From a virus, in the IMG/VR virus record IMGVR_UViG_3300022602_004665, positions 1-22,342 of that record: DNA of 22,342 bases. One strand, written 5' to 3'. The notes beneath the pieces were generated by a model. The model was not told where the DNA came from. It saw nothing but the letters and a program-made list of their open reading frames with translations, and did not search any database. Each line of letters starts with the position of its first letter. Within the stretch, counting starts at the first letter, position 1. Below are positions 8,396 through 22,342 of this stretch, in pieces. A program made the position numbers and the translations under genes.

Positions 8396-8399
8396 AGTC

Positions 8400-8869: not shown

Positions 8870-8916
8870 TCAAAAGTCAATACCCACTTTATAAACACAA
8901 ATTAATTTTTGACTAC

Positions 8917-9127: not shown

Positions 9128-9156
9128 TTGACGATACGCTTTCCGATTGTTAGATT
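9128..9156 (+). promoter_or_regulatory. Sigma70 promoter for the replication/packaging genes
   Basis: TTGACG (9128-9133), a 17-bp spacer and TAGATT (9151-9156) make a near-consensus promoter. It lies about 57 bp upstream of the ydaU start and is followed by a GGAGA ribosome site at 9199-9203. A repeated CTTGCA motif lies between the promoter and the gene. Confidence 0.65.
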
Positions 9157-9212
9157 CATCTCTTGCATAAATTATTTCTTGCAATAAAAGAACAACGCGG
9201 AGACAGTATTAA

Positions 9213-10115
9213 ATGAATTATTACGAGCATCACATAGGAGATTACGCAGAAGCTACTGCACATCTGACCTTTATCGAAGACGCTACTTATAGCCGTTTAA
9301 TTAGAAAGTATTACGCCACAGAAAAACCATTGCCGATTGATGTAAAGCTCGTGCAACGATTGATCAATGCACGATCAAAAGAAGAAAAAAATTCAGTTGT
9401 CTCAATCCTGAATGAATTTTTCACTCTCACTAATGATGGTTGGAGACAAGTGCGCTGTGATCATGAAATAGCCCGCTTTAAAGATAAGCAAAATAAGGCT
9501 AGACGCAGTGCTGAAGGTCGTTGGCAAGCATTTCAAGCAGATGATTTGCGCCAAGAAAATGAACCTCACAATGTATGCGTTCGCATTGCGACCGCATTGC
9601 GACCGCAATGCTCACCAGACACCAAACACCAGACACCAGTCACCAATCTCCATACACCAGACAAACAAAACAATGGGGGTGAAATCGAAAAAGTTTTACA
9701 AGGCGATGGTAAAAGGAAAAAACAAATTCAAACTCTTTTTGAAAAGGAGGGCTTGAATATTGGAGCAGACGATGAGCGTATTGCTCAGTTGATTCAACAA
9801 GGCCTAATCGTTGAAGAGGTTGAGGAGGCTATTGCCCAGGCAAAGGAAATGCGAAGGAGGGCATCAAGCTCTACCCCGATCAATGCTGGATTTGTTCTGG
9901 CCATTCTGAAAGGGATGCGTAGGAAGGCTCAAGCCCTTGATTCTTCTGAAGAGACCTGGTGGAAATCGAATCAGGGAATTGACCTTAAAGGACGAGAACT
10001 CGGAATGCGTGCTCAAGGCTCGGAGAGTTATGACTCTTTCAAAACCAGAATCTTTGCTGAGTTGCGTAAGAGAAAAGAGATCCCAGCTACAACGGAGGCT
10101 TCCCATGCAAGCTAA
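9213..10115 (+). CDS. YdaU/DUF1376-type phage replication protein
   Basis: A 300-residue protein with an N-terminal DUF1376 (YdaU) domain: MNYYEHHIGDYAEATAHLTF through about residue 105, including the LIRKYYATEKPLP and KARRSAEGRW motifs. This winged-helix-like module is found in prophage proteins that take the place of the lambda O replication initiator. A low-complexity Thr/Pro/His/Gln linker at about 124-155 follows, then a basic helical C-terminal part. The start has GGAGA at 9199-9203. The linker is encoded by tandem DNA repeats that look like iterons (9582-9662). It heads the rightward operon and overlaps the next gene by 11 bp. No helicase or helicase loader follows, so replication probably depends on host or helper proteins. 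Confidence 0.8.
   Translation: MNYYEHHIGDYAEATAHLTFIEDATYSRLIRKYYATEKPLPIDVKLVQRLINARSKEEKNSVVSILNEFFTLTNDGWRQVRCDHEIARFKDKQNKARRSAEGRWQAFQADDLRQENEPHNVCVRIATALRPQCSPDTKHQTPVTNLHTPDKQNNGGEIEKVLQGDGKRKKQIQTLFEKEGLNIGADDERIAQLIQQGLIVEEVEEAIAQAKEMRRRASSSTPINAGFVLAILKGMRRKAQALDSSEETWWKSNQGIDLKGRELGMRAQGSESYDSFKTRIFAELRKRKEIPATTEASHAS
9582..9662 (+). repeat. Iteron-like tandem repeat array inside the ydaU-type gene; candidate replication origin
   Basis: Two parts lie back to back. CGCATTGCGAC occurs twice (9582-9592, 9593-9603), followed by the inverted CGCAATGC (9604-9611). After a 2-nt gap come seven contiguous 7-bp units close to ACCARAC from 9614 to 9662 (ACCAGAC, ACCAAAC, ACCAGAC, ACCAGTC, ACCAATC, TCCATAC, ACCAGAC). 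An A-rich stretch follows from about 9663. Iterons plus an A/T-rich tract inside the initiator gene is the arrangement of lambda ori within the O gene. Origin function is inference. Confidence 0.55.
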
Positions 10116-10347
10116 CCCAGGTATAGCTGGAATCATTGATCGACCCGATATGGAAGATTTCCCAATCGGATCAATCGTTAAAACCCCAAGTGGCCGAATA
10201 GGCACAGTTGTAAAGCATCGTGGGGCCCAAAGTCGTCATGACCTATTCCAGAGAATCATCATTGAGTTTGATGAGCCCTTTGGCGATTCAGTAGCATTGC
10301 AACCTCATCTTTTGAAGATGATCAGAAGACCAGAAGCATCATCATGA
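10105..10347 (+). CDS. Hypothetical phage protein with KOW/SH3-like beta fold (80 aa)
   Basis: An 80-residue protein with alternating beta strands: FPIGSIVKTPSGRIGTVVKH, then RIIIEFDEP and a terminal PHLLKMIRR. The pattern resembles small SH3/KOW-type barrels, but I do not recognise a named family. The start at 10105 has a GGAGG at 10094-10098, 6 nt upstream; longer versions in this frame only shadow the preceding gene. It overlaps that gene by 11 bp and terS by 4 bp (ATGA), so it is embedded in a tightly coupled operon. Confidence 0.65.
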   Translation: MQANPGIAGIIDRPDMEDFPIGSIVKTPSGRIGTVVKHRGAQSRHDLFQRIIIEFDEPFGDSVALQPHLLKMIRRPEASS

Positions 10348-10796
10348 TTGAAAACAATCAAAAGAAATCAAAGCCAAAGGCAAAGCCAGCAAATAAAGGA
10401 GGAGCTAGGCCAGGAGCAGGGCGTAAAGAGGGCAGCCTCACCAAGAGGACTCGTGAGATTGCAGAGGTAGCCGCCGCGCAGGGTATTACACCTTTAGAAG
10501 TCATGATGAGCACCATGATGGCGCTCTACAAGGAAGCTGAAAATTGCACTAAGCATGATGATCATGCTCATGAAGGTGTTGGTCATGATCATGACATCAT
10601 GATCACCGAGAGTCGAATCAAACTCCTAAACATGGCTGCCACCATAGCAAGACATGCTGCCCCTTATGTTCACCCGCGTCTATCTGCAATCGAGCATACG
10701 GGTAAGGATGGGGCGCCACTACAAAGTGGCGTCTTGGTGGTGCCAGGAGCGATGAGTATGGATGATTGGGAGCAAGCCGCCCAAGCAAAACACTAG
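10344..10796 (+). CDS. terS: Terminase small subunit-like protein
   Basis: Predicted DNA-recognition subunit of the packaging motor. The 150-residue protein begins with a Lys-rich tail and the GGARPGAGRKEGSLTKRTRE motif typical of phage terminase small subunits and related DNA-binding proteins. Helices follow, then an unusual His/Asp-rich segment (HDDHAHEGVGHDHD at 71-84) and a C-terminal part ending MDDWEQAAQAKH. It is coupled to the upstream gene by an ATGA overlap and overlaps the terL start by about 35 bp. The position directly before terL supports the call. The His/Asp insertion could bind metal, and its DNA is full of TCATGA-type palindromes (see findings). Confidence 0.75.
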   Translation: MIENNQKKSKPKAKPANKGGARPGAGRKEGSLTKRTREIAEVAAAQGITPLEVMMSTMMALYKEAENCTKHDDHAHEGVGHDHDIMITESRIKLLNMAATIARHAAPYVHPRLSAIEHTGKDGAPLQSGVLVVPGAMSMDDWEQAAQAKH

Positions 10797-12141
10797 CGAA
10801 TTAAAAAAATCAATGAAAACCATCTGGGCACCATTACCCGGTAGCCAGACTTTGTTTCTGACTTGCCCAGTGTATGAAGTATTGCTAGAGGGCACCCGAG
10901 GAGGGGGTAAGACCGATACCTTGCTCATGAGTTATGCCCAACATGTAGGTAGAGGCTTTGGAGATCACTGGCGCGGAACACTCTTTCGTCTAACTTACCC
11001 GCAGCTAGCTGACGTAGTAGCCAAGAGTAAGCGCTGGTTTTATCAAATTTTCCCGGGTGCCAAGTTCAATGAATCTGACTACGTGTGGAAGTGGCCTACC
11101 GGTGAGATGTTGTACTTTCGCTATGGAGCGAATGAAGATGACTATTGGAATTACCACGGCCATGAATACCCTTGGCTAGGATTTGAGGAGCTCACCAACT
11201 GGCGGAATCTTTCTTTCTACGAAGCAATGCATTCCACCTGCAGGTCATCTCATCCAGGAATGCCAAGGATGGTGCGAGCTACTTGCAATCCATTTGGGGT
11301 GGGCCATGCATCAGTAAAGGAAAGATTTCAGATTGGGACAATACCGGCTGGGCAAATTATCAGGCAAGAAGGCGCACTACCTAGGGTCAGAATTCATTCG
11401 ACGATTTATGAGAACACCCATCTCCTAAAAAACGACCCCAACTATCTCATGAGTCTAGAGTCACTAAGCGATCCAAATAGGCGTAGGGCATGGTTAGAAG
11501 GTGACTGGGATATCCATGTAGGAAGTTTCTTGGAAGGCGTATGGCAGCCCTCTAAACACGTTGTAGAACCCTTCGCAATTCCACCAACATGGAAAGTATG
11601 GCGCTCAATGGACTGGGGCTATGCCAGGCCTTATGCCGTCTATTGGTTCGCACTATCTAATGATGGAGTCTATTACCTATGGAGAGAACTCTATGGATAT
11701 GGCGATAAAGAAAACACGGGCACAAGAGAAGATGCAACAGTAGTTGCAGAGAAAATTAAAAAGATTGAGATTCATGACCAGCGCCTAGGATATGAATACC
11801 GCATGAACTTAGCTGATCCATCCATCTTTTCAAAGATAGGAGCAGAGCGATCCATCGGCCAGATCTTCAGGGATAAAGGGGTGAAATGGACTGAGGCCTA
11901 TAACGCCCCCAGAAGTAGAGTCAACGGTGCTCAGGAACTCATCCGGCTACTAGCTGAAGACAGGCTCAAGATCTTCTCAACCTGTAAGCATTGGCTTAGA
12001 ACAATCCCGCAATTACCACCAGACTCATTAAATCCCGAAGACGTGGATACGGATGCTGAGGATCACGCCTGGGATGCAACTAGATATGGCGTAATGAGGA
12101 TGAGGAGAAACTCTGAGCCTGACTCTAAAGGTAAAGATTAA
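10762..12141 (+). CDS. terL: Terminase large subunit
   Basis: The ATPase-nuclease that drives DNA into the prohead and cuts it. The 459-residue protein has Walker A GTRGGGKT (44-51), Walker B WLGFEE (138-143), a coupling region near TCNPFG, and the RNase H-like nuclease acids: Asp284 in SMDWGYARPY and the C-terminal DAEDHAWD (431-438). All core motifs are present, so it is probably functional. The ATG at 10762 has an AGGAG 12 nt upstream (10745-10749) and lies within the end of terS. An ATG at 10813 is an alternative but lacks a ribosome site. The following head genes are separated from it by the DUF3800 module. Confidence 0.93.
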   Translation: MIGSKPPKQNTSELKKSMKTIWAPLPGSQTLFLTCPVYEVLLEGTRGGGKTDTLLMSYAQHVGRGFGDHWRGTLFRLTYPQLADVVAKSKRWFYQIFPGAKFNESDYVWKWPTGEMLYFRYGANEDDYWNYHGHEYPWLGFEELTNWRNLSFYEAMHSTCRSSHPGMPRMVRATCNPFGVGHASVKERFQIGTIPAGQIIRQEGALPRVRIHSTIYENTHLLKNDPNYLMSLESLSDPNRRRAWLEGDWDIHVGSFLEGVWQPSKHVVEPFAIPPTWKVWRSMDWGYARPYAVYWFALSNDGVYYLWRELYGYGDKENTGTREDATVVAEKIKKIEIHDQRLGYEYRMNLADPSIFSKIGAERSIGQIFRDKGVKWTEAYNAPRSRVNGAQELIRLLAEDRLKIFSTCKHWLRTIPQLPPDSLNPEDVDTDAEDHAWDATRYGVMRMRRNSEPDSKGKD

Positions 12142-12144
12142 ATT

Positions 12145-12290
12145 AAGTAGGCAGGAGATCAGGATTTATATGTATTTTTTAATTGCCTACTTGTTTTTGG
12201 GGGCAATTAGGAGATAGAATTTACCCGCGACTAGTGTGCTTGTTCCACGGCAAGCTCCTCCACTTTGTGGGCTGGTCGCTCCTATTCTTA
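12145..12290 (+). ncRNA. Candidate structured RNA between terL and the DUF3800 gene
   Basis: The gap folds in several ways by eye. AAGTAGGCA (12145-12153) pairs with TGCCTACTT (12184-12192), followed by GTTTTT. This excludes TAATTGCC (12180-12187) pairing with GGCAATTA (12202-12209). Next is a junction: AGAAT/ATTCT (12216-12220/12284-12288), GCGACTAG/CTGGTCGC (12227-12234/12272-12279), and two inner arms, GCTTG/CAAGC (12238-12242/12251-12255) and CCAC/GTGG (12260-12263/12267-12270). A strong terminator follows at 12293. No known RNA family is recognised. Confidence 0.35.
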
Positions 12291-13001
12291 GGGCCAGCGC
12301 TGAATCATAAATTCATCGCTGGCTTTTATTTTTTTCCAGCAATCCTCAATTTCTTTTTCATGCCAACTTTTAGCTGGCGCTGTAGCATTTTCATATCTTC
12401 CCGCCATATATACGATTAAATCTGCTACCTGAAGAAATCTGCTGTGGTGTGATTGCGTAAAATACACTGTATCAAGCAATCTTCCAAGTGGACGTCCGTA
12501 GTACATCGGAGTTTTACCCTGGCTTTTATATTCAGAAAAATCTACCACGGCATTGGTAACCTCATCTGCCTCATAGTCGCCAAACACTAAACCAATGTCC
12601 TTTACTTTATCTAGATATCCACAAAATCTCTCAAGCATTAACATTAGACCAAGTCTGTATGGTGGCATGGCATAAAAGTACTTTTCTTTATGCTCAATCA
12701 CATTTATACATACAACTCTTATTGGAATTTTGTTACTAATTAAAAAATTAGTGACATCTTTAAAGACTTGAACACGCTCTGCTAATTTTCGACCTTTCGC
12801 ATTACTTTTCCCATGAAAGATATCTTTTCCATGAATTTCATTTGATTGAGTCATCGCCCTTGATCCAAAAAAATTAAACGCGATTTGGGAAAGCGTATTT
12901 TCAAACTCAATCGCTTTTTGATCTGGAATCAATAATCCACCCAGAAAAAAATATGGATTACCCTCAAAGTGTTTATTTTCGTCAAAGTAGCAAAGATGCA
13001 T
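12288..13001 (-). CDS. DUF3800 domain protein (putative RNase H-fold nuclease), cargo gene
   Basis: A 237-residue protein matching the DUF3800 family: the N-terminal CYFDEN (Asp7, Glu8), NEIHGKDIF (54-62), the mid-domain acidic GDYE (141-144) and the signature QVADLIVYM (191-199, Asp194). The family is predicted to have an RNase H-like fold with acidic active-site residues and is frequent in prophage and defence cargo; its activity is not established. It lies on the opposite strand between terL and the portal gene, which are usually adjacent in phages, and is more AT-rich than its neighbours, so it looks like an inserted cargo gene (a moron). The ribosome site is weak. Its 3' end contains a terminator facing the late genes. 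Confidence 0.8.
   Translation of the reverse strand: MHLCYFDENKHFEGNPYFFLGGLLIPDQKAIEFENTLSQIAFNFFGSRAMTQSNEIHGKDIFHGKSNAKGRKLAERVQVFKDVTNFLISNKIPIRVVCINVIEHKEKYFYAMPPYRLGLMLMLERFCGYLDKVKDIGLVFGDYEADEVTNAVVDFSEYKSQGKTPMYYGRPLGRLLDTVYFTQSHHSRFLQVADLIVYMAGRYENATAPAKSWHEKEIEDCWKKIKASDEFMIQRWP
12293..12335 (+). terminator. Strong intrinsic terminator after terL, inside the 3' end of the DUF3800 gene
   Basis: GCCAGCG (12293-12299) pairs with CGCTGGC (12317-12323), and TGAAT (12301-12305) with ATTCA (12311-12315), across one mismatch and a 5-nt loop. TTTTATTTTTTT follows. It acts on plus-strand transcripts from terL and lies within the antisense strand of the last codons of the DUF3800 gene. Confidence 0.8.
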
Positions 13002-13089
13002 ATAAGCTCTAAAAAAATCATTTTTTAAATCATCTCAGGTAATGGTATTTAAATCAATTAGATGGATCATTCTCATTATTTATCCGGCT

Positions 13090-13110
13090 CTAGATAAATC
13101 CTAGATAAAT
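13090..13110 (+). repeat. Tandem CTAGATAAAT repeat upstream of the portal gene
   Basis: CTAGATAAAT occurs at 13090-13099 and 13101-13110, one base apart, with a related CTATAAAT at 13133-13140. The A/T-rich repeats lie between the divergent DUF3800 and portal starts. They could be activator sites or -10-like elements that restart head-gene transcription after the terminator. I see no clear -35. Confidence 0.35.
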
Positions 13111-13145
13111 TTCCAACGGGTAAGCTACTAATCTATAAATAGCAT

Positions 13146-15098
13146 GTGCCCCAAGACCCTAAAGCTCTTCAACAAAAATGGACTGCCCGCATCACTCATG
13201 CGCGCGCTCACTGGTCAGCCTTTCATAAGCGCGTAAGGCATAACCGCAATACAGTAGCAGGCTTTAACTGGAATGCAGATCCAACCAGTAAAGACTTCTA
13301 CAGCCTTAGAGCAAATCTAATACACGGTACTATTTCTGCCGTTCTGCCAAATGTGTACGCAAGAAACCCAGAGATCTCTACAGCACCATTAAATTCGGGC
13401 GCGGACCTCAAGCTTTTTTGTAGAACACTAGAAGCAGTAACCAATAGAGCTCTAGAACATGCGCAATTAAAGAATCGAGCCAAGTCAACGGTAAGAGCAG
13501 CATTGACTTGTAGCTTCGGAATTCTCAAAGTGATGTATCAAAGAGACCCAAGTAAGGATGCTTACATTAAAGGGCGGATTAATGATGCGCAAGAGAATCT
13601 ACTGCTTATCAAAGAGCTAGAGCAAGATCTTGATGACGGTAATCAGAGTCATCATCATGATGTCAAAAGGGCAGAGTTAGATGAACTCATCGGATCTTTA
13701 TATGAGCGCTCAGAGGTTAATGCTGCTGAAGGTCTCGTCATTGATAGAGTCCTTACCGAGAATCTGCTCATCGATCCCTCAATCTGTGAATTCTGGGATT
13801 ACACCGATGCGGACTGGATCTGCCAAGTCATACCGATGAAGCGCTCGCAGGCTGAGGCTATGTATAAGAAGAATCTAGCCAATGCCAAGATCTACCAACC
13901 AGGTCAAGGCGAACCCTCACATAAGAAAGCCAGGCGCTTAGCCTCCATGCATATGGATGCAAGCAAAAGTCCGGTAAGTGATGATCAGCAGATCGCAGTC
14001 TTGGAAATTTGGGATAGAACCACTCAGCGTGTATACACCATGGTGGAGGGCGCATCTGAATGGCTACGTGAACCTTATTCGCCTCCAAGAGCTGGTGAGC
14101 GCTGGTACCCATTCTTCCTATTACCTTATCAGGTAGTGGACGGTCAGTTTGTTGGGCCAAGCCTAGTTGATCTGACTGAACGACTGCAAGATGAACACAA
14201 CGAAGCGAGAGACAGATTTAATCAGCATCGGGATCTCTGTATTCCGGGGTGGGTGGCATCAGCAGATATCAATGAGAAAACAATCAAAAAGCATGCTGAT
14301 TCACGATTTGGTGAGATTACGATTGTCGATACCGAAGGCAAGCCGCTGAACCAAGTGATTATTCCTAGAGGCCATCCCAAGATCGACCCCATTGTCTATG
14401 ACACCAGTGCAGTGCGTTACGACTGGGAGCAAGTCACGGGCCTGCAAGATGCTGCGCGCTCCACAGTGGTAAGACCTAAGACAGCAACCGAAGCCAACAT
14501 CTTGCAAAGAGCGTTATCGGGACGCGTATTTGAATTCAAAGACCAGATAGAAGATTGGCTGCAAGAGATAGCGCAATACAGCGCCCAGGTTTTATTGCAA
14601 GAACTCACAAGCGAACAGGTAGAGCGCTACATGGGTGCGCCAGTTACTAGAACAGCCATGGTCGATGGCAAGCTCACTATCACTAAAGAGAAAACCTATG
14701 ACTGGCCAACACTTACCAAAGATCGGATCTTTGACATGGTTGATCTCAGAATTAGAGCGGGTACTACCGGCGCGCCGGATGGCATAGAAGAAAAAGAAGG
14801 TTGGTTAAAAGTCCTGCCAATGATTACAAATCTATCAATACAAATTCAAAACCTACAAGCTAGAGGAATGGATTACGAACATATCCGTAATCTCCTACGG
14901 GAAACGGTCTTGCGATATGACGATCGTATCGATTCAAATCTATTTATACCGAATGTAGAAAAGCAAGCGGAGGGTTATGTCGACCCCAACTTAGGAGTCA
15001 ATCTATTTTCTGAGAGGCGACAAAGAATCAATAGCGAGACAAGTAACAACAGTAATTCATTAAAAGAGGAGATCAGCAATGACGCAGGTGGCAAATGA
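13146..15098 (+). CDS. Portal protein (P22-like)
   Basis: Forms the dodecameric ring at the packaging vertex through which DNA enters the head. The 650-residue protein resembles P22-type portals in length and layout: an N-terminal helical region with YSLRANLIHGTISAVLPNVY, a wing/stem middle including DRVLTENLLIDP, the LVDLTERLQDEHNEARDR stem helix (about 342-359), TGLQDAARSTVV, and a long helical C-terminus. The frame can only open at GTG 13146 or later because TAG lies at 13140-13142, and there is no good ribosome site. The gene overlaps the scaffold gene by 20 bp. The weak start, directly after the DUF3800 insertion, suggests that the upstream region was rearranged. Confidence 0.85.
   Translation: MPQDPKALQQKWTARITHARAHWSAFHKRVRHNRNTVAGFNWNADPTSKDFYSLRANLIHGTISAVLPNVYARNPEISTAPLNSGADLKLFCRTLEAVTNRALEHAQLKNRAKSTVRAALTCSFGILKVMYQRDPSKDAYIKGRINDAQENLLLIKELEQDLDDGNQSHHHDVKRAELDELIGSLYERSEVNAAEGLVIDRVLTENLLIDPSICEFWDYTDADWICQVIPMKRSQAEAMYKKNLANAKIYQPGQGEPSHKKARRLASMHMDASKSPVSDDQQIAVLEIWDRTTQRVYTMVEGASEWLREPYSPPRAGERWYPFFLLPYQVVDGQFVGPSLVDLTERLQDEHNEARDRFNQHRDLCIPGWVASADINEKTIKKHADSRFGEITIVDTEGKPLNQVIIPRGHPKIDPIVYDTSAVRYDWEQVTGLQDAARSTVVRPKTATEANILQRALSGRVFEFKDQIEDWLQEIAQYSAQVLLQELTSEQVERYMGAPVTRTAMVDGKLTITKEKTYDWPTLTKDRIFDMVDLRIRAGTTGAPDGIEEKEGWLKVLPMITNLSIQIQNLQARGMDYEHIRNLLRETVLRYDDRIDSNLFIPNVEKQAEGYVDPNLGVNLFSERRQRINSETSNNSNSLKEEISNDAGGK
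13393..13411 (+). repeat. 19-bp exact repeat, copy 1 (in portal)
   Basis: ATTCGGGCGCGGACCTCAA at 13393-13411 is identical to 16222-16240 in the scaffold gene. Here it is read as part of NSGADLK; the other copy is read in a different frame. Conservation of DNA rather than protein points to a site or a copied segment. Confidence 0.7.
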
Positions 15099-16317
15099 AG
15101 TAACGAGTTTTAAATCAGAGGTTCTCAGCAATGGTGGATCCATTCAAAGAGCTCAAAATAGGGAAGAGTTAAAAGAACGCGAGCGCTTGAGAAAGGAGGC
15201 TGAAGACAAACATGCGGCTGAAGTACACGCCAGGCGAATAAAGGCAAGAGAAGAGCGTGATCTGAAGTTAGCCGAAAGAGCGGCAGCTCAGAAGGCATCC
15301 GATGAAGAAAAGGCAAAAAAAGCTGAAGAGCAAGCAGTTGCCAAATTAGCTAAAGAGCAGGAAGCTGAAAGGCAAAAGGCACAAAAGGCAAAGGTACAAA
15401 AAACAGAGCCCAAAAGTCAGGCTACCAGTTTGCTTGATGACCTCAGTAAAGCATCCAAGCCCAGCGCATCTCTTGCTCAAATATCTGAGGATATTGAAGA
15501 GGGAGAAGAGTTAGAGGATTCAGAGGTTGAGCCAATCTTTACTCCAATCAAGGGTGAGGTACAGGTACCTGCCATGATGACCGCTCCTGAAGGCGAACTA
15601 GAGCCTCAAGCTTATGACCTGGGAGAGTTATTGCCCGCACCAGCTGCAATCACTGTAGATGTACTCCCACAGCCAGCCATTCAGACTGAAAACGCAGAAG
15701 AATTGATCAATCGGGTGTTGAACCCTGGATCTGTGGATTCGAGCCCTGAGAGTAATAACAAGCCTAATGAAGAAGCCTCTGGCGACATCAAGTCAAAGCG
15801 TGGGTGTGAACGGATTCAAAAGATCATCAATGAAAAGCGAGATCTAGAAAAGCAGGTTGAGGATTTGCAAGTTACTGTGGTGAGCTTGCACGATGCTCTT
15901 CGTAAATATGAAATCGAAAGTCAATTTGTTGATAACGCAATGTCAGTATCTAACAAGCAGAAGAAACCTACCGAGCTAGTATCAGAGGCCAAGCACCAGA
16001 TCATCAAATACTTAAACTCTCGCGAAGATGAGGTTGATCATTCGGCTAAGGCTCAATGTTTTTACAAATACCTGACCGACCCCTTTTATATGCAGGTGTT
16101 TGTGCAAACCAATAAACCAGAGCAATGGCAATCTACGATTGAATCCATCTACGACTCAATAGGGACGCCAGAGCCTAGCTTTGCGAATGTAAAGATCAAC
16201 TCTATGAAAACGCTTCAGCCTATTCGGGCGCGGACCTCAACCTTGGGTACGCCACTGGCTAGCTCCGAAAACCCAATGGATCGAATTGCTCAACATCTAG
16301 GCAATATGGGAATATAA
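15079..16317 (+). CDS. Putative head scaffolding protein
   Basis: A 412-residue protein, called scaffold from position (between portal and capsid) and composition. Residues about 28-112 are a long charged Lys/Glu/Ala coiled coil (ELKERERLRKEAEDKH onward), followed by a Ser/Glu/Pro-rich acidic disordered part (about 113-235), a second coiled coil (about 242-280) and a C-terminal part containing YKYLTDPFYMQVF. No catalytic motif is seen. Scaffolds are poorly conserved in sequence, so this cannot be confirmed by motif. An AGAGGAGA lies about 8 nt before the ATG, and the gene overlaps portal by 20 bp. It carries the second copy of the 19-bp repeat. The gene ends at a shared bidirectional terminator facing the AbiE module. 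Confidence 0.6.
   Translation: MTQVANEVTSFKSEVLSNGGSIQRAQNREELKERERLRKEAEDKHAAEVHARRIKAREERDLKLAERAAAQKASDEEKAKKAEEQAVAKLAKEQEAERQKAQKAKVQKTEPKSQATSLLDDLSKASKPSASLAQISEDIEEGEELEDSEVEPIFTPIKGEVQVPAMMTAPEGELEPQAYDLGELLPAPAAITVDVLPQPAIQTENAEELINRVLNPGSVDSSPESNNKPNEEASGDIKSKRGCERIQKIINEKRDLEKQVEDLQVTVVSLHDALRKYEIESQFVDNAMSVSNKQKKPTELVSEAKHQIIKYLNSREDEVDHSAKAQCFYKYLTDPFYMQVFVQTNKPEQWQSTIESIYDSIGTPEPSFANVKINSMKTLQPIRARTSTLGTPLASSENPMDRIAQHLGNMGI
16222..16240 (+). repeat. 19-bp exact repeat, copy 2 (in scaffold)
   Basis: Second copy of the repeat at 13393-13411, here read as IRARTST, about 2.8 kb downstream of the first and near the end of the scaffold gene. Confidence 0.7.
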
Positions 16318-16320
16318 GGC

Positions 16321-16352
16321 AAACAACTTCAGGGTTAGCCCTGAAGTTGTTT
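16321..16352. terminator. Bidirectional terminator between scaffold and abiEii
   Basis: A 14-bp perfect stem: AAACAACTTCAGGG (16321-16334) pairs with CCCTGAAGTTGTTT (16339-16352) around a TTAG loop. Three bases of the loop are the complement of the abiEii stop codon, and the scaffold stop is 3 bp away. T-runs on both sides allow it to end both converging transcripts. Confidence 0.85.
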
Positions 16353-17390
16353 TGATGCAAATTGAATTGATTCTAAGATTTCATCGAACGTAGGGGTTAT
16401 GCCAAAAATCATCGTCGACATTTGCTCATAATCTCTGCGAAGAGCGGGAATCATTGCCTCGCTAGGGTAGATTAAGAAATTACCTTGTGCTGCAGAATTT
16501 TGTTGATAGTCTTTATCAAAAAAGAAGATAGATGCATGCAGGGCGCATTCTTTACCAAGATTCATATCCTTGATGGCATTTTGACCAACCGCATTATTCA
16601 AAAGCATGTGTAGATCATAGTAATGGCGAGAAATGCGATTGCCATCATTCCTTAGGCTTCTCCGTGCTTCAAACCAAGCGCGCAAACCATGAGCGATGAC
16701 AGCCTTATCCCAGAAGGTTCTTTCTGGCGCTATGCAATTCACATTGGGCACGCTCAAGCCGCCGCCGATAAATTCTTGAGCAACGTAGGGATTGATTGTG
16801 ATGAGCCTGCTGGGATCTAACGCTGATTTGGCGCCAGCTTCAATCTTGACCTTGGATTCAATATAGTCATCCTTGCCCGATGCTTCTAGAGATGGATACT
16901 CAACTAGTAAGGTCTGTGCATCTTTGTCGGTGGTATCTATGACAACCTTAAGGGCAGGCATCGAGATACCAGCATTGTTTAATTCGTTCTGAATTTGTAA
17001 GGTAAGACGATCTTTTAGATCGCCAAGAATATAGGTAGAGCAAGCAGTCTTAATCTGACCTAAGTATTCGTTACGTTTATTTCTGCCCCAGCTTTGTATA
17101 GTTGCAATATCGGTTGAATGTCCGATATCTTCCCGATACACCGTGATATCAATATCCTCAGAAAAGCGTGAGATCAAGTCATAAGCTTTTGAAAGGGAAG
17201 TGCCACCCTTAAATAAGAGGCGTGGCCCACCCTCTAGTTTGTCGTTGAATAGTAGATCCAAGACAAAGCAAACCCAAAAGTCTTTCTCGACATTTCGTAA
17301 TGGTGTGCCTAAGCGAACTGCAGTCTCTAGGAAGAGCGCGCGCCTATCGCTTTCGCTAGCCTGAAGGACTTTGAGAAAATTACTATTCAT
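16335..17390 (-). CDS. abiEii: AbiEii-type nucleotidyltransferase toxin
   Basis: The toxin half of an AbiE abortive-infection/toxin-antitoxin module. The 351-residue protein shows the nucleotidyltransferase signature LLFKGGTSLSKAYDL (58-72) followed by EDIDIT with Asp79 and Asp81, and the downstream conserved ERTFWDK. Members of this family transfer nucleotides to RNA and stop growth, which limits phage spread. It starts 11 bp after the antitoxin gene with an AAGG ribosome site in the gap, so the two form one operon. It lies in reverse orientation between the scaffold and capsid genes, an unusual place for cargo. Motifs look intact. Confidence 0.9.
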   Translation of the reverse strand: MNSNFLKVLQASESDRRALFLETAVRLGTPLRNVEKDFWVCFVLDLLFNDKLEGGPRLLFKGGTSLSKAYDLISRFSEDIDITVYREDIGHSTDIATIQSWGRNKRNEYLGQIKTACSTYILGDLKDRLTLQIQNELNNAGISMPALKVVIDTTDKDAQTLLVEYPSLEASGKDDYIESKVKIEAGAKSALDPSRLITINPYVAQEFIGGGLSVPNVNCIAPERTFWDKAVIAHGLRAWFEARRSLRNDGNRISRHYYDLHMLLNNAVGQNAIKDMNLGKECALHASIFFFDKDYQQNSAAQGNFLIYPSEAMIPALRRDYEQMSTMIFGITPTFDEILESIQFASKQLQG

Positions 17391-17401
17391 TTGCCTTCAG
17401 T

Positions 17402-18082
17402 TTAATGAGAGAGTGCAATTTGGGGTAAATCGCTAGAAAGACCCTTGAGTAATGGGTGCATCCATGCTGGTAAGTGCGATAGATCCTTCTTGATGTCTCG
17501 CGCAATACTTGCCCCAGCCTTTGGGTCATTAATGATTCTAGATAAGGTGGCTTTAATATCAGCTTGAGCGGAAGGATCTTTTTGCTTGATTCCATCTTTG
17601 AGCCAGTGAAGTGCCTGAACGACACGCATAGCAGGGCGATCTGCCCAGATTAACTTACTAGGTGATGCCAACTTAAATTGAATAGTGAGGTTTCCAATTT
17701 GAACGGGCTTGATGCGGGCATCGGTATGCACGATCACCTTGCCTGGAACCGCATTGGTTAGCCCTAAGTCATTAGCGGCCGTCATGCCATCAATAAGCAT
17801 GCGCGCGCTATCGCGCCTAGCAATAGCCCAGATCACATTCTGATAGTTGGGCTGAGATGTTTTGCCGGTTAATGGGTTAACCCGTGGACGATCGTATAGG
17901 CCGTGATCGATGCGACGTAAGTCACCTTTATTGGTGAGGCGCTGGAGGGTTTTGTCTACCGCGCTACGGTTGCCTAAGTCGAGAAAATCCTTTGCCGTCC
18001 AAACCTTATCGGCTTGGCTACGGCTAATGCGCCGAGCAATCAGCGCATTGAGAGGGATTTTGGCGTTAACTAGTGCTTTCAT
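17402..18082 (-). CDS. abiEi: AbiEi-type antitoxin/regulator (DUF6088 family)
   Basis: The antitoxin and autorepressor of the AbiE pair. The 226-residue protein has an N-terminal winged-helix domain (about 1-70: VWTAKDFLDLGNRSAVDKTLQRL, RRIDHGLYDRP) and a C-terminal AbiEi domain with NDLGLTNAVPGKVIVHTD and TIQFKLAS segments, as in DUF6088 proteins that accompany AbiEii toxins. It is cotranscribed with abiEii (11-bp gap). The -10 box lies only 9 bp before the ATG, so the mRNA may be nearly leaderless. Inverted repeats upstream are likely its own operator. In known AbiE systems the antitoxin represses the operon and counters the toxin without tight binding. Confidence 0.85.
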   Translation of the reverse strand: MKALVNAKIPLNALIARRISRSQADKVWTAKDFLDLGNRSAVDKTLQRLTNKGDLRRIDHGLYDRPRVNPLTGKTSQPNYQNVIWAIARRDSARMLIDGMTAANDLGLTNAVPGKVIVHTDARIKPVQIGNLTIQFKLASPSKLIWADRPAMRVVQALHWLKDGIKQKDPSAQADIKATLSRIINDPKAGASIARDIKKDLSHLPAWMHPLLKGLSSDLPQIALSH

Positions 18083-18091
18083 AGTCCTTAA

Positions 18092-18162
18092 ATTATATAC
18101 AAATATCGGACAAATGCAACATAAATTAACCGTTAAAAAACCATATAAAACAATGGGTTAAA
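18092..18162 (-). promoter_or_regulatory. abiE promoter and candidate autoregulatory operator
   Basis: On the minus strand, TTGCAT (18119-18114), a 16-bp spacer and a perfect TATAAT (18097-18092) precede abiEi. Upstream, TTAAC-C-GTTAA (18126-18136) is a palindrome, and AACCAT (18139-18144) faces ATGGGTT (18153-18159) as an inverted repeat. These fit the paired repeats bound by AbiEi-type repressors. Confidence 0.65.
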
Positions 18163-18194
18163 AGAATATTAAAAATACCTAAGGTATCAATAAA

Positions 18195-18447
18195 ATCAAG
18201 GTCACCCCGTAGGGGTGGCGTAGCTTACCTTGATGTGCGAGGACAAAAAGACACTATTTCAATGGTTAAGGTGACAAGGAGGAGCCTTAACCATAGAAGC
18301 AAGGGTGCTCACAAACTCAACAAAAACCCCACAAATATCCCAAGCCCATATCTACCGCCCCAATAATTGTTCTTAGTGCTTCACGCCACCGCGTTAAAGC
18401 TAGAGTCGCGACTAGCAGCGTAGCAATGGATGGGTTCGCGCTCCATC
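18195..18447 (+). promoter_or_regulatory. Multi-hairpin leader region upstream of the capsid gene
   Basis: This gene-free stretch has four plus-strand folds. ATCAAGGT/ACCTTGAT (18195-18202/18227-18234) encloses CACCCC-GTA-GGGGTG (18203-18217). ATGGTTAAGG/CCTTAACCAT (18262-18271/18285-18294) has the loop TGACAAGGAGGAG, which exposes a strong Shine-Dalgarno-like sequence. GCTAG/CTAGC (18399-18403/18412-18416) overlaps the palindrome AGTCGCGACT. GATGG/CCATC (18429-18433/18443-18447) is the last. GTCACC (18201-18206) can also pair with GGTGAC (18270-18275), giving an alternative fold. No promoter was clearly seen. Confidence 0.45.
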
Positions 18448-18497
18448 ACCAGGTATTGAAGCTAACTAATTTCAAAACATATTGATAGGGGTGGCAT

Positions 18498-19544
18498 ATG
18501 CCAATTTCAAATACAGACTTGCAGGAGTTAGCTAAGGTTTCCTTAGATGAGTACTTGCGCAATCTACCAGTCGATCAAATCGCCGTAGAGAGACCTTTCC
18601 TTAAAAAACTGATGGAAGGACGTAAAAGCTTATTAGGCGCAAAACAGAACGTAGTCGAGAACATCCGCAAAGAACATGGCAGTAACTTTAGCTGGGCCTT
18701 TGGCGAAGAGACGGTCAAGTTCAATAAACGCAATACCACTGAGCAGGCCTCATTCCCGTGGCGTAGAGCGGTAGATGGCTTGTACATCGACTATGACCGA
18801 CTCTTTAGTAATGGCATCAAGGTGCGCGAAGGTGGTGCGCGAGGATTCCAGTTGGAATACAACGAGCGCGTACAGCTGATCAATCTCTTGGATGAGCAAT
18901 TAGAAGTCCTGCGAGAAGGCTTTCTCAATAAGCTAGACCTGGAACTACACCGCGACGGCTCGCACGGCGCCGATGCAGTAGTTGGCCTAGATAGCCTAGT
19001 CAGCCTAGCGCCAGATGCCGGTACGGTAGGCGGTATTGATCGAGCCAAAGCAAGCTACTGGCGTAACTATGCTGTCAAGGACATTGCCTCAACATCGCCA
19101 GGTAACTTGGTAGGTGAGATGGAGACCGCTTGGCGTCAATGCATTAAGCATGGTGGCAGTCCTGATTTCATCATCGCAGGCGGTAAGTTCATTGATACCT
19201 ATCGCAAGCAAGTCACAGTGACCCATATTGCTGGATCAGGTGAAACCAAGTACATCGATGCAGGAGTAGGTGCAGGCGTTAACACTGGCCTAGCCTTCAA
19301 GGGTGTGGAGATCATCTGGGATCCGCAGTTTGATGAGCTTGATGCCATGGCTAATAGAACAGTGGAGTGGAGTAAGCGATGTTATTTCCTCAATACTCGC
19401 TTTATGAAGCTGCGGGATGACGACCTAGACATCGTTGCCCCAATCCGTCCGCACGACACCCTAGCCATGTACGCCATGGTGAACTTGCGCTGCGCCTTAT
19501 CCATCTCAAGAGCTAATGCCCATGCGGTATTGGCTATTCAATAA
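18498..19544 (+). CDS. Major capsid protein
   Basis: The 348-residue protein is called major capsid from its place after the scaffold-like gene and its family-like content: an N-terminal helical arm (PISNTDLQELAKVSLDEYL), LSNGIKVREGG-type beta strands near 103-112, a glycine-bearing central part (GLDSLVSLAPDAGTVGGIDR, then YWRNY), and a C-terminal domain with IIAGGKFIDTYR and GVEIIWDPQFDEL. This matches phage coat proteins of the HK97 fold. The AGGGGTGG before the ATG is a good ribosome site. A 415-bp hairpin-rich region and the AbiE module separate it from the scaffold gene, so it probably has its own promoter. Confidence 0.85.
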   Translation: MPISNTDLQELAKVSLDEYLRNLPVDQIAVERPFLKKLMEGRKSLLGAKQNVVENIRKEHGSNFSWAFGEETVKFNKRNTTEQASFPWRRAVDGLYIDYDRLFSNGIKVREGGARGFQLEYNERVQLINLLDEQLEVLREGFLNKLDLELHRDGSHGADAVVGLDSLVSLAPDAGTVGGIDRAKASYWRNYAVKDIASTSPGNLVGEMETAWRQCIKHGGSPDFIIAGGKFIDTYRKQVTVTHIAGSGETKYIDAGVGAGVNTGLAFKGVEIIWDPQFDELDAMANRTVEWSKRCYFLNTRFMKLRDDDLDIVAPIRPHDTLAMYAMVNLRCALSISRANAHAVLAIQ

Positions 19545-19554
19545 GGAGGAATAG

Positions 19555-19947
19555 ATGAATAACACAATGAACAAAGAACTCATTCGTAGTGACTTTCAAA
19601 TTAAAGAAGTAGAAGCAGTAGTGCGTAGGGATGCATTCACGACTATCCATGTGCATGTACCACCGTATGAGACCAACATCCTTCGCAATCTATTTGGGCG
19701 CGAAAACGTCACGGTGTTCGAGCGCCCATCAAAGACCACCATTACTCCAGAGCAAGAGTACGACCGTCTATGCGCCAAGTATGGTCATGAGGTCGTGGCT
19801 AAAGTCTTTGGTGAAGATGATGGGGATCGCCTAATGGAGATCGTAGAAGGTTTGATGAAAGAAGGTCAGCTCCCAGCGCAAGAGAAGGCATTAGAAGGAA
19901 CTCTTGAGCAAGAGCCATCAGAAACCAAAGGAGCTAAGAAACGCTAG
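19555..19947 (+). CDS. Unknown head-region protein after the capsid gene (130 aa)
   Basis: A 130-residue acidic protein beginning 10 bp after the capsid stop with an excellent AAGGAGGA ribosome site. Visible parts are a beta-strand segment (TTIHVHVPPYETNILRNLFG), a helical EYDRLCAKYGHEVVAKVFG segment and a charged Glu/Lys tail. I do not recognise the family. The strong translation signal behind the capsid gene suggests an abundant head component such as a decoration or completion protein, but that is position-based inference. Confidence 0.7.
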   Translation: MNNTMNKELIRSDFQIKEVEAVVRRDAFTTIHVHVPPYETNILRNLFGRENVTVFERPSKTTITPEQEYDRLCAKYGHEVVAKVFGEDDGDRLMEIVEGLMKEGQLPAQEKALEGTLEQEPSETKGAKKR

Positions 19948-20121
19948 CAGAAGGGAAGACCACCGCTAGCAGCAGGTGTTTGGGTGCGGCTGCGGGTGTT
20001 GAAGTAACCATGGTATGTGGGCGCGCGTAACTGCGCCCCACTGCCAACACCAAAGAACAGCCTAGGCGGTAGTGGGGCGGTGGACTTCCATATTCCAAGC
20101 ATCAAGAAAAGAACTAATGAC
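19948..20121. other. GC-rich gap after the head genes; possible deletion scar
   Basis: No convincing gene. The plus-strand frame that continues past the preceding stop reads QKGRPPLAAGVWVRLRVLK and then stops, and a second stretch in the same frame runs into the holin without a ribosome site. The DNA is richer in GC than its surroundings. It has a 9-bp direct repeat CGCTAGCAG (19942-19950, 19964-19972) and a bulged hairpin near GTGGGCGC...GCGCCCCAC (20017-20041). It is the place where tail genes would normally stand. Confidence 0.35.
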
Positions 20122-20658
20122 ATGCTTCCAATCATCACATCTCTAGCGCAAACCTTGGCCGTCAATGGCCTTGGTCTACTTGCGGGCGCGGTACAAGCCA
20201 AAGGAAAGGAATTCATTGAGAGCAAGATTGGGGTGCGCATTCCAGAGAATCCCAGCCATGAGGATCTCATTAAGCTCAAACAGTTAGAGGTTGAGCAAGA
20301 GCAGCTTCTATTGCAATACACCCTTAAACAGAAAGAGCTAGAGATAGAAGAATCAAAGCTACTAGCTGAGATGCATCGAGCTTCACAAGAGAATGCTACA
20401 CACCGATGGCAGTCCGATATGGGTAGCGATTCCAAGTTATCAAAGAACATCAGACCGGGAACGCTTGTTTACATTCTGACTGCTTATCTTCTATTCGCAC
20501 TTCTTTCAGCAATGGGGATAGACATCAATGAAGCCTATGTAAAGCTGCTAGGCGAATGGGGGCAGTTAGTCATGCTCGCTTACTTTGGTGGGAGATCAGT
20601 AGAGAAGATCTTTGAGATGCGTATGAATAGCTCGAATAAAAAAGAAGAGCAGGCATGA
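20122..20658 (+). CDS. Holin of the GTA 3-TM type
   Basis: A membrane protein that should release the endolysin at the end of the cycle. From the ATG at 20122 the 178 residues have a hydrophobic N-terminal segment (ITSLAQTLAVNGLGLLAGAV), a Glu/Lys/Leu coiled coil (about 45-90), the family motif WQSDMGSDSKLSKNIRP (96-112) and two further membrane segments (about 113-132 and 145-158). This is the holin family described for gene-transfer agents and many prophages. Upstream GTG starts add a basic, proline-rich stretch that lacks a ribosome site. The stop overlaps the endolysin ATG (ATGA), so lysis genes are coupled. Confidence 0.8.
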   Translation: MLPIITSLAQTLAVNGLGLLAGAVQAKGKEFIESKIGVRIPENPSHEDLIKLKQLEVEQEQLLLQYTLKQKELEIEESKLLAEMHRASQENATHRWQSDMGSDSKLSKNIRPGTLVYILTAYLLFALLSAMGIDINEAYVKLLGEWGQLVMLAYFGGRSVEKIFEMRMNSSNKKEEQA

Positions 20659-20996
20659 GTGGTTTAGTGGCAGAGCAAGCAGCATTCTTAATTGATGTCA
20701 GCCGCCTCATCCAGTTTGCAACGGCTGAGGGGTGGGTTGTAACAGGAGGGGAGCTTTGGCGTTCCCCGGAGCAGCAGGAGATCTACTTCAAAAGCGGGAG
20801 ATCTAAGACTATGAATAGTAATCACTTGAGACGCTGCGCAATTGATCTGAACTTCTTCTGGAATGGAAAGCTAGTTTGGGATAAAGAGCTCATCCGTACG
20901 GTTGGCGAATATTGGGAAAGCTTAGGCCCTAAGAATAGATGGGGTGGGAATTTCAAAGGGTTTGTGGATGTGCCACATTTCGAGAGAGTTGCTTAA
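20655..20996 (+). CDS. Endolysin: M15 family zinc peptidase
   Basis: A 113-residue peptidoglycan peptidase of the M15 (VanY/L-Ala-D-Glu peptidase) type. The zinc ligands are visible as His57 and Asp64 in NHLRRCAIDLN and His108 in DVPHFE, with GGELWRSPEQQ at 31-41 upstream as in the family. It has no signal peptide, so export depends on the holin. The length is at the short end of the family but all metal ligands are present. ATGA overlap with the holin gene marks a lysis cassette. Confidence 0.85.
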   Translation: MSGLVAEQAAFLIDVSRLIQFATAEGWVVTGGELWRSPEQQEIYFKSGRSKTMNSNHLRRCAIDLNFFWNGKLVWDKELIRTVGEYWESLGPKNRWGGNFKGFVDVPHFERVA

Positions 20997-21029
20997 TTAT
21001 TACCCCTCCTCAATTTAGATATTTTTAGG

Positions 21030-21266
21030 TTAGCCCAAGTCTCGCACCCACTCTTTTCCAGCTTTGAGTCCAAGCTCAGCCGCTTCAATTTCCGTTTCAA
21101 ATTCTGGGTTTCCAATAAGTGGGACTTGAAATTCTTCAATTCTATCTGGGTAGTGCCTTGCAATAACTAGCTTAGACGCAAATTTACCATTTCCCATAAG
21201 CTGAGGTGTGTGATGAAGAACATAAACTTCATCATCTTTTTTAACGGATTGAGACCATTTACTCAT
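21030..21266 (-). CDS. Hypothetical protein (78 aa)
   Basis: A 78-residue protein beginning MSKWSQSVKKDDEVYVLHH, with a beta-rich first half and a helical ETEIEAAELGLKAGKEWVRDLG end. I do not recognise a family. The ATG at 21266 has an AAAGG about 8 nt upstream. A longer in-frame version reaching 21326 would add a hydrophobic leader without a ribosome site and is less likely. It is divergent from the DUF6680 gene. Confidence 0.55.
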   Translation of the reverse strand: MSKWSQSVKKDDEVYVLHHTPQLMGNGKFASKLVIARHYPDRIEEFQVPLIGNPEFETEIEAAELGLKAGKEWVRDLG

Positions 21267-21344
21267 TTTTAGACCTTTGAGGTGATAACTTAACGGAAGT
21301 AAAGTTAATATATAAAAAAATTGCAAATATATAAAGGCATTTCA
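21267..21344. promoter_or_regulatory. Divergent promoter region with an inverted repeat
   Basis: An AT-rich gap between two divergent genes. TAACTT (21286-21291) and AAGTTA (21302-21307) form an inverted repeat, followed by TATA-rich DNA. Exact -35/-10 boxes are not clear. The ribosome sites AAAGG (minus) and AAAGG (plus) mark both starts. Confidence 0.35.
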
Positions 21345-21863
21345 ATGACTATTGCTGACGGTTTAATAATTCTCGCTACTTTATCTGGCCCAATAATTGC
21401 AGTTCAGGTTACTAGATATTTGGATGATAAAAAAGAGGAGCGGGGTAGGAAATTAGCGATATTTAAAACGCTGATGGCAACCCGCGCTTATACCGTTTCA
21501 AATGCCCATGTAGAAGCTCTCAATAGAATTGATCTAGAGTTTTCAAGCAAGATAGATAGCGAGCGAGAAGTAATTTCTAAGTGGAAAGAATATCTAGATC
21601 TGCTTGGTGATAAAAGTATCTCTGCAGAACAGTGGGGTATGAGAAGGATTGATTTGCTTGTAGAGCTTTTGAGTGCAATGGGAAAATCCCTCGGTTATAA
21701 ATTTGATAAAGTGCATATTAAGAACGCCACTTATTCACCGCTTGCACATGGAAAATTAGAGGAAGAGCAGCAGGCAATTCGGACTAAAACTATTGAAGTT
21801 TTAGAGGGCACCCGCTCTCTTTCTATAAAAGTGGAAAGTTCACCAGAGAAGCCGCAAAGCTAA
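21345..21863 (+). CDS. DUF6680 family membrane-anchored protein
   Basis: A 172-residue protein with an N-terminal hydrophobic segment (MTIADGLIILATLSGPIIAVQVTRYLDD), then a basic turn and a helical body with RKLAIFKTLMATRA, HVEALNRIDLEF and RRIDLLVELLSAMGKSLGYKFDK. This is the pattern of the DUF6680 family as I know it; function is unknown. The ATG at 21345 has an AAAGG about 9 nt upstream; the ATG at 21321 would add eight residues without a ribosome site. It lies beside the integrase, where accessory genes of integrated elements cluster. A defence role is only a possibility. Confidence 0.7.
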   Translation: MTIADGLIILATLSGPIIAVQVTRYLDDKKEERGRKLAIFKTLMATRAYTVSNAHVEALNRIDLEFSSKIDSEREVISKWKEYLDLLGDKSISAEQWGMRRIDLLVELLSAMGKSLGYKFDKVHIKNATYSPLAHGKLEEEQQAIRTKTIEVLEGTRSLSIKVESSPEKPQS

Positions 21864-21875
21864 TTGAAGATTTCA

Positions 21876-22342
21876 TTATGCAACCTTCTTCTGTAGCTCA
21901 ATAACCTCAGCCCCATTCTGCGCATGAGTAAGCTTCTCGCTCCACCATTTATATAGCCCAACCCTCTGGGTAAATCTTTCACCACGATCATAGGCCCGAA
22001 CAACCTCATTCCCATGTGCGTGATCGAGTGCTAACTCAACTACATCTTGCTCAAACCCATTTTCTCTAGCTAGGGTAGAGAAAGCGCTACGCCAGCCGTG
22101 TGGTGCATGCTTTCCTGACATATTGAGTGTTACCCGATAAGCTTTCTCAAGACTCTCACGACTGATGAATTGATTGCCTGTTGGCGATGGAAATACATAA
22201 CCTTTTCTCCCAAAGAGCTTCCCCCATTGCTTTAACTCTGTAGTAATTTGCGGGCCTAGAGGAATTCGATGATCGCCAATACGTGTGTGATCTTTCATCT
22301 TGGCGCGAGGTATTACCCAGATCGGAATATCCGCATCAAGAT
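21876..22342 (-). CDS. int: Tyrosine recombinase/integrase, C-terminal part (runs off the window)
   Basis: The catalytic end of a P4-type tyrosine recombinase that integrates and excises the element. The frame is open to the right edge, so the N-terminus is outside. From ATG 22298 the visible part has MKDHTRIGDHRIPL (the beta-hairpin before the HxxR box), HGWR (His67 and Arg70; His codon near 22100), His93 in LDHAHG, and the nucleophile Tyr103 in VRAYDRG (codon near 21992). The catalytic C-terminal residues that I can see are intact. It points inward, as integrase genes next to an attachment site often do, which puts the second att site just beyond 22342. Confidence 0.9.
   Translation of the reverse strand, partial: LDADIPIWVIPRAKMKDHTRIGDHRIPLGPQITTELKQWGKLFGRKGYVFPSPTGNQFISRESLEKAYRVTLNMSGKHAPHGWRSAFSTLARENGFEQDVVELALDHAHGNEVVRAYDRGERFTQRVGLYKWWSEKLTHAQNGAEVIELQKKVA

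Follow-up and report, generated by a model that had tools for sequence, protein, structure and literature searches.

We analysed the whole of the IMG/VR virus record IMGVR_UViG_3300022602_004665, a 22,342-b stretch of DNA that is cut at both ends (hereafter the window) and that a first-pass annotation, made from the letters alone, had taken for a capsid-forming satellite or a prophage that lost its tail block. We conclude, with a probability of roughly 0.7, that the window belongs to a satellite lineage of Polynucleobacter, integrative and capsid-forming, that derives from a podophage and takes its tail from a helper. The host, placed by the relatives of the window, is this freshwater bacterium. 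We lean, more cautiously, towards a fuller statement: that these elements are a separate, genus-wide class of satellites, in which a short-tailed phage lost its whole tail block, the head, packaging motor and capsid-leader RNA were kept, a podovirus tail is taken from siblings such as the tailed phage G193 (described below), and four slots make the element a vehicle for defence genes. A satellite lineage fits better than a decaying prophage because the loci with tail genes are separate from it and because the tail-less elements form a clade of many diverged, strongly selected members.

The genes named in the first-pass annotation, and their order, were borne out by profile matches (Pfam, PHROG and PADLOC). 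Downstream of an AlpA-like regulator (8454-8675, -; PF05930 E 0.00039, 20.7 bits vs a cut-off of 21.0) lies a DUF1376/YdaU-like primosomal replication protein (9213-10115, +; PF07120 6.4e-27, phrog_3992 2.2e-29), followed by orf136 (9937-10347, +), a small conserved gene before terS that has no Pfam match and has tblastn matches in tail-less and tailed relatives alike. The packaging genes are the small terminase subunit TerS (10344-10796, +), identified by a weak match (phrog_5334 E 0.007) plus position, and the large subunit TerL (10762-12141, +; phrog_2 1.9e-36), which has its conserved start ~16 codons inside this open reading frame (ORF). The head genes comprise a podovirus-type portal (13146-15098, +; phrog_12082 2.9e-12, the SU10 and P22 portal Pfams both being under their cut-offs), a scaffold-like protein (15079-16317, +) and the major capsid protein (18498-19544, +; phrog_9953 1.1e-35), which had no Pfam match at E 0.01 and hence none to PF05065. 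The scaffold-like protein, without a Pfam or PHROG match, has a charged sequence, sits between portal and capsid and is present in 17/17 sequences compared. Directly after the capsid gene is u130 (19555-19947, +), whose homologues lie 3' of the capsid gene in tailed phages, and then come a holin (about 20125-20658, +; phrog_3427 5.8e-12), an M15-type endolysin (20655-20996, +; PF13539 5.9e-11, phrog_465 8.1e-19) and the C-terminal part of a tyrosine integrase of the ssrA-site family, cut by the window end (21876-22340, -; PF00589 6.2e-8). The core of DUF1376, TerS, TerL, portal, scaffold, capsid, u130, holin, endolysin and integrase was present in 9/9 elements compared (eight picked for placeable ends, plus the window), and alpA lay upstream of DUF1376 in 48/48 distinct tail-less regions with enough flank (57/57 loci before duplicate removal). 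The annotation had started the element at 9213; its gene content stands, but the element begins well before this position, because AlpA and the type I restriction-modification (R-M) genes lie to its left.

The annotation had also reported no tail, head-tail connector or CI-type repressor, and none matched among the scanned window ORFs: tail, head-tail connector, head protease, HNH and CI-type families gave 0 matches in 30 scans of ~25 window ORFs, many small ORFs lying outside the scan. The site that holds the tail block in tailed relatives (19948-20124, +) has no tail gene in the window, as judged from the gap between u130 and holin. This gap is 155-325 bp in 60/60 distinct copies with both genes in view (67 distinct capsid copies after duplicate removal), and the distance from u130 to gp4 in the tailed group is 1.9-6.1 kb (37 loci, duplicates kept). 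Tail genes past the right edge, set beforehand as a finding that would count against a satellite, were not there: in five relatives (G003, G007, G088, G185 and G023) an integrase 92-97% identical to that of the window lies directly beside the transfer-messenger RNA (tmRNA) gene, with host genes such as gyrA following, which leaves no space for tail genes to the right of the integrase.

A second finding set beforehand, complete phages among the close relatives with tail genes behind u130, turned out differently. Such phages do exist, the closest having capsids ~72% identical and the order capsid, u130, fibre genes, gp4-like, gp10-like, but they form a separate set. Counting loci, several of them from one contig, 92 carry gp4 or gp10, 121 carry a Polynucleobacter-type capsid (>95%) and 127 carry a window-type TerL; the overlap of the 92 tail loci is 0 with the capsid set and 0 with the TerL set. 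A tree of 97 distinct capsids placed the tail-less ones in one clade of 47 (support 100/100) inside the tailed podophages; contigs of insufficient length for scoring appear in it as 'n' rows, and it is flagged as unsafe where its longest branches join. The tailed Burkholderiales podophages with ~72% capsids (L040, L046/G193, L142/L158) share with the tail-less elements the order orf136, terL, portal, scaffold-like gene, capsid, u130, often with DUF1376, and in several cases the capsid RNA leader. They differ in having their own gp4-like and gp10-like tail genes and fibres. Conversely, the holin and endolysin of the satellites were found in 0/112 loci of this group (some of which stop short of the lysis region) and alpA in 0/2 testable tailed loci, and G193 has a CI/LexA-type repressor. 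Two more distant isolates, Mae-Yong1326-1 and RHph_N65, have their head genes in the same order (~25% identity), and both have gp4/gp10 homologues; the annotation of Mae-Yong1326-1 has tail tubular and DNA-stabilisation genes beside the capsid gene.

The lineage is widespread in its host genus. The capsid protein matched 64 loci among viral contigs, with groups at ~82% and ~72% identity, and TerL matched 268 stretches among viral contigs (the best 80 of which were retained) and 55 loci in named genomes, the closest of them mostly Polynucleobacter. In most Polynucleobacter loci matched, TerL is 93-99% identical. Among 186 Polynucleobacter genomes (the genus of P. hirudinilacicola, G003), 35 had a capsid match and 30 held 34 full-length, stop-free capsid copies that are 97-100% identical. 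We read 16 regions from 15 genomes together with the window; a 17th, cut by a contig end, was left unused. Of the 16, five adjoin ssrA, the tmRNA gene, six contain a tRNA-Ser near the left end and five have neither a tRNA nor a tmRNA gene. As the window is cut at both ends, we looked to relatives for the attachment (att) sites. Eight elements could be delimited on both sides (three at ssrA and five at tRNA-Ser), and their att repeats give ~26-37 kb, a range biased to compact copies since longer or broken ones could not be bounded. The left att was not found for G003 and G088, nor the right copy for G012. An empty site was seen with the tRNA-Ser query, as the joined flanks of G076 are unbroken in four other genomes (G012, G107, G106 and G009); the ssrA joined-flank query returned no full-length empty site, its listed matches mostly spanning ~441-1000 or 500-1000.

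The core genes are under purifying selection. Median pairwise ratios of nonsynonymous to synonymous substitution (dN/dS) were 0.014 for capsid, 0.013 for TerL (15 sequences; 0.019 with 9), 0.033 for holin, 0.032 for endolysin, 0.057 for portal, 0.089 for TerS, 0.091 for u130, 0.122 for scaffold and 0.138 for DUF1376, next to 0.026 for gyrA and 0.039 for serC in the host (5 genomes); these ratios are rough because many dS values were saturated (usable pairs: endolysin 39/136, TerS 44/120, scaffold 24/136). Portal, scaffold, capsid, u130, holin and lysin are stop-free in 17/17 sequences, which were picked for a full-length capsid, and the stops that seem to occur in aligned TerL and DUF1376 sequences fall upstream of the conserved start or mark the usual C-terminus. 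Among G003, G007 and G088, the dS of DUF1376, TerS, portal and scaffold is 0.05-0.31, far under the 0.64-0.86 of gyrA, so this part of the element has moved between species. The capsid dS of the same three is 0.32-1.0, and u130, holin and lysin are also more diverged than the DUF1376-to-scaffold part, which suggests mosaicism. In many loci the capsid is 97-100% identical while the adjoining scaffold-like gene drops to ~35-45%; the portal-scaffold and capsid blocks appear to have been swapped separately. A further peculiarity concerns TerL: those of G022 (in L259) and L163 have an in-frame insertion of ~1 kb after ~residue 120, which begins with Cys and ends with Asn before Cys and which we take to be intein-like, and TerL matches that start at residue 138 (L164, L166) may reflect the same type of insertion.

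Tail-less and some of the tailed members have in common a structured RNA leader of the capsid gene (18348-18500, +), seen by covariation and covariance-model matches. Within the ~150 nt before the capsid gene are two hairpins with compensatory changes (18399-18416 and 18429-18447) and an outer helix (18390-18392/18418-18420). Across 24 sequences (17 tail-less and 7 from the 72% group), pairing is kept in 94.2% of cells and in every cell of the main hairpin, and seven pairs change on both sides (reached by 9/500 shuffles). Across 21 distinct tail-less sequences, 98.9% of cells pair and six pairs change on both sides (0/500 shuffles), with the number of further pair types not above shuffles (491/500 reach it); because the structure was read from the tested sequences, the slid control is biased towards it. 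A covariance model built from 22 tail-less sequences gave 61 matches at E<=1 over 88 sources, directly before capsid genes: 54 strong ones in tail-less loci (22 being the model's own sequences) and seven weaker ones in the tailed group, where G193 had the top score among the loci searched (41 bits). The leader had no Rfam match.

The portal is where a borrowed tail would have to dock. The first-pass annotation had called it P22-like; by profile it is of podovirus type (phrog_12082). When PDB was searched with an AlphaFold model (pLDDT 69.7), N4 portals led, SU10, Pa223 and Pan3 came next and P22 ranked 30th, all at TM-scores of ~0.4-0.5 (~0.45-0.5 for the leading N4 and SU10 portals). Sequence searches of PDB returned no credible homologue of capsid or portal. 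We took segment 365-414, between two stem-like helices, as the putative clip; its identity is 0.86 among five satellite portals (0.74 for the whole portal) and 0.68 among 11 portals of the tailed group. A conserved putative clip fits continued docking of something there, which is no proof of it. As for u130, which had no significant PDB fold match, we regard it as probably a head protein. It was also considered as a candidate tail adaptor: PDB offered no significant match, and the single significant match in BFVD was to an uncharacterised phage protein.

The annotation had likened the element to capsid-forming phage-inducible chromosomal islands (cf-PICIs), and its idea of a tail-less, head-forming satellite lineage is supported, but literal membership is not. 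We compared the two by gene content and description, our capsid tree being drawn without cf-PICI capsids. Like cf-PICIs, the Polynucleobacter elements are chromosomal, carry AlpA (just under the Pfam cut-off in the window), an integrase, their own TerS (weak by profile) and TerL, a portal and a capsid, and have no tail genes; tails come from a helper in cf-PICIs, as the literature has demonstrated, and would do so here. The set described for cf-PICIs in the portion available of one source is capsid, head protease, portal, connectors, terminases and HNH (PMC10690885). Unlike these, the Polynucleobacter elements have no head protease and no recognised connector in the core of the nine elements and no HNH among core genes or scanned window genes, whereas they do have a scaffold-like gene, a podovirus-type portal and their own holin and endolysin. 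Their capsid lacks a match to PF05065, the type used for cf-PICI trees, their host is betaproteobacterial, and the bounded elements measure 26-37 kb against an average cf-PICI genome of 14 kb in the text at hand (PMC10803314). We infer that they work like cf-PICIs, and do not file them as members.

Other satellites show partial likeness. Mulch and Flayer, satellites of Streptomyces phages, also code for a capsid and for packaging and are helper-dependent (as we propose for Polynucleobacter) but, in the excerpted description by which we compared them, are without key replication genes, have terminal repeats and are parasites of virulent Streptomyces phages (PMC10690885). Likewise, cf-PISP TG54 of Vibrio crassostreae has head genes and terminases and no tail genes, but the part of its report available to us describes it as episomal, 15.8 kb long and without an integrase, with a PF05065 capsid nested among those of cf-PICIs (PMC13230959). 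Repeated origin of capsid-forming satellites is not new in itself, because three separate radiations have been noted in cf-PICI capsid trees, according to extracts of the source (PMC11389934). We did not meet a satellite originating from a short-tailed phage in the literature searched, part of it in extract, and found no paper there naming both Polynucleobacter and a phage satellite. In the broad sense, the elements are capsid-forming satellites as far as their DNA tells: integrative, with their own head and packaging and no tail, intact and mobile, with broken and long copies as exceptions. They do not carry the gp4, gp10, ejection and fibre module of a complete podovirus prophage, and they do not have the relaxed selection and broken core genes of a decayed one, although single broken copies exist.

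A candidate helper is G193 (IMG/VR 3300038704_000011), a tailed sibling phage with an integrase, an S24/HTH repressor, a lysozyme and tail genes; it is a lead and no proof. By record names, it comes from the same metagenome as the satellite contigs L009 and L053. Its 4-mer composition correlates at 0.80-0.82 with three Polynucleobacter references, 0.62 with a fourth and 0.35-0.57 with loci of three other genera, and two satellites correlate at 0.72-0.90 with the same four references, a rough comparison as the references are short flanks or prophage loci. When 398 Burkholderiaceae were searched with a 55-residue piece of its SSB (391 matched), all 61 genomes of the Polynucleobacter set (87-93%) ranked above every other genome (<=84%). 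Its non-core DNA has almost nothing in common with the satellites (3 short matches of 393) and bears no sign of direct exchange with them. The record has two diverged copies of part of the tail region, one per end (L393 68-3187 vs around L394/L395), and is possibly a joined assembly. Tail and prophage markers are rare in the genus, with gp10 in 0/186 Polynucleobacter genomes, an HK97 portal in 5/186 and a tape measure in 9/186, 2 of them above the cut-off (one tape-measure family), and therefore the helper is probably virulent or seldom integrated.

Cargo occupies four slots: left of alpA, between terL and portal, between scaffold and capsid, and between lysin and integrase. The names given to the cargo of the window in the first-pass annotation agree with the PADLOC and Pfam matches. 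The left slot holds a trypsin-like protease (302-1075, +; PF13365 1.7e-12, PADLOC PDC-S45 2e-9) and the type I R-M genes HsdR, HsdS and HsdM (1821-7614, +; PADLOC and Pfam), the terL-portal slot a DUF3800 protein (12288-13001, -; PF12686 1.5e-14), the scaffold-capsid slot an AbiEii/AbiEi toxin-antitoxin pair (16335-18082, -; PADLOC AbiEii 2.5e-94, AbiEi 3.5e-90) and the lysin-integrase slot a DUF6680 protein (21321-21863, +; PF20385 8.9e-58). HsdM-like genes are in 7/9 elements compared, and the terL-portal slot ranges from 52 b to 7.1 kb in 16 sequences. We scanned 128 of 137 cargo ORFs (9 integrases dropped) and listed the 25 commonest families of 334 in PADLOC, 104 in PHROG and 82 in Pfam; type I R-M was the commonest cargo among the families listed, and no tail family was among the 25 per library. 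Tail genes in the left part were considered and rejected, as the left ends, read by eye, and the 128 cargo ORFs, among the families listed, gave defence genes and genes of unknown kind. The left part of the G003 element (L269:1409-8569, -) has a cargo run, read by eye and without a library match by name, that we take to resemble ZorA/ZorB-type membrane proteins, followed by large genes. In the satellite-bearing locus L166 (11235-11271, -), an abiF RNA family match falls exactly at the gathering score.

Around alpA, the window further has an NT5C 5'-nucleotidase (7632-8078, +; PF06941 4.8e-13), a frequent accessory gene (5/9 elements), and gA (8075-8530, -), which is in 6/9 elements, matches neither Pfam nor PADLOC at the thresholds applied and may belong to the switch with alpA. 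The intergenic region between alpA and DUF1376 (8676-9212) has long conserved stretches in 16 sequences, which are candidate operators or a candidate replication origin.

On the satellite reading, the lineage would go back to one event in which a Burkholderiales podophage lost its tail block. Integrating site-specifically at ssrA, at tRNA-Ser and elsewhere, it would have spread across the genus and traded defence cargo in the four fixed slots. Once induced, the element would replicate by its DUF1376/primosomal module under the AlpA-type switch, and its own TerS and TerL would pack its DNA into a self-encoded, scaffold-assembled head by way of a podovirus-type portal that is likewise its own. 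A helper podophage in the same cell would be the tail donor: transfer would most likely go through a short tail (gp4, gp10, needle, ejection proteins and receptor binder) docked on the satellite portal. The element's own holin and endolysin would lyse the cell.

A number of results weigh against this reading. A gp10 profile found 0/186 Polynucleobacter genomes (positive controls 6/6), so a gp10-type helper is not a resident lysogen in these genomes; a single-protein gp10 search, run without a control, was also empty. Own lysis genes are unexpected for a strict tail thief. Excised or circular junctions were seen in 0 of 26 viral loci (24 contigs), a weak test in which most loci extend <500 b beyond the integrase. 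The portal stretches on either side of the putative clip surpass it in conservation (0.97 and 0.90), and the capsid and lysin dS among G003, G007 and G088 is not generally below that of gyrA. Five of the 35 capsid-positive genomes have only capsid fragments, two with a stop. No portal was seen after TerL in 6/16 named-genome loci with 10 kb there (L143, L146, L150, L151, L152 and L156), and in the 21 kb of L152 the core is reduced to alpA and TerL, with DUF1376, TerS and portal missing. In G009 (contig C1, ~131-196 kb), TerL and portal are ~52 kb apart on the same contig, with DUF1376, TerS and TerL outside a 52-kb region spanning portal to integrase; an insert of great size, nesting of elements or breakage of the copy may account for this, and the length exceeds a 40-47 kb head unless the copy is composite. 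Some copies are thus composite, interrupted or remnants, and such long and broken copies slightly lower the support for a satellite.

These capsid fragments, remnants (L152) and very long or interrupted copies (G009) are what one would expect of a decayed prophage without its tail block, passively inherited because its defence cargo helps the host, and the heavy cargo and the existence of tailed relatives point the same way. We nevertheless consider this explanation unlikely, given a single tail loss common to the whole clade, after which purifying selection acted strongly on the capsid, TerL and lysis genes (dS near 1), six stop-free head and lysis genes in the full-length-capsid set, several attachment sites and low inter-species divergence in part of the core. 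It is very unlikely that the particle is self-sufficient, with filled heads freed by holin and endolysin delivering their DNA by, for example, uptake of released DNA or through some novel adsorption factor. The lysis genes in 9/9 elements and the rarity of tailed-prophage markers, gp10 included, would agree with such a particle, but podovirus heads without gp4/gp10-type plugs leak DNA, as in P22, the core of the nine elements has no conserved candidate adsorption gene, and the putative portal clip stays conserved.

Head genes might instead be kept for a defensive or other function in the host, such as blocking the assembly of related phages, and not for transfer. Dense defence cargo would suit this, as would the typical interference of satellites with their helpers described in the sections available of PMC10690885, but terminase, portal, holin and endolysin are also under purifying selection and a portion of the element has crossed species borders, which makes this explanation improbable even by comparison with the self-sufficient particle. 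Hardly credible is a split phage, with tail genes elsewhere in the same genome: nothing speaks for it directly, and the empty gp10-type profile search with its positive controls disfavours it, other tail types having been probed by one tape-measure family.

If the satellite reading is true, satellites that make heads and steal tails arise also from short-tailed phages, with the tail docking directly on the portal. With the tailed sibling phages, the idea that a module was lost becomes open to direct test, and the elements occur in named Polynucleobacter strains, among them P. hallstattensis MWH-Hall10, where the element is bounded at 37 kb, and P. hirudinilacicola. The reading would also account for the movement of large and varying sets of defence genes among abundant freshwater bacteria in which few tailed-prophage markers were found.

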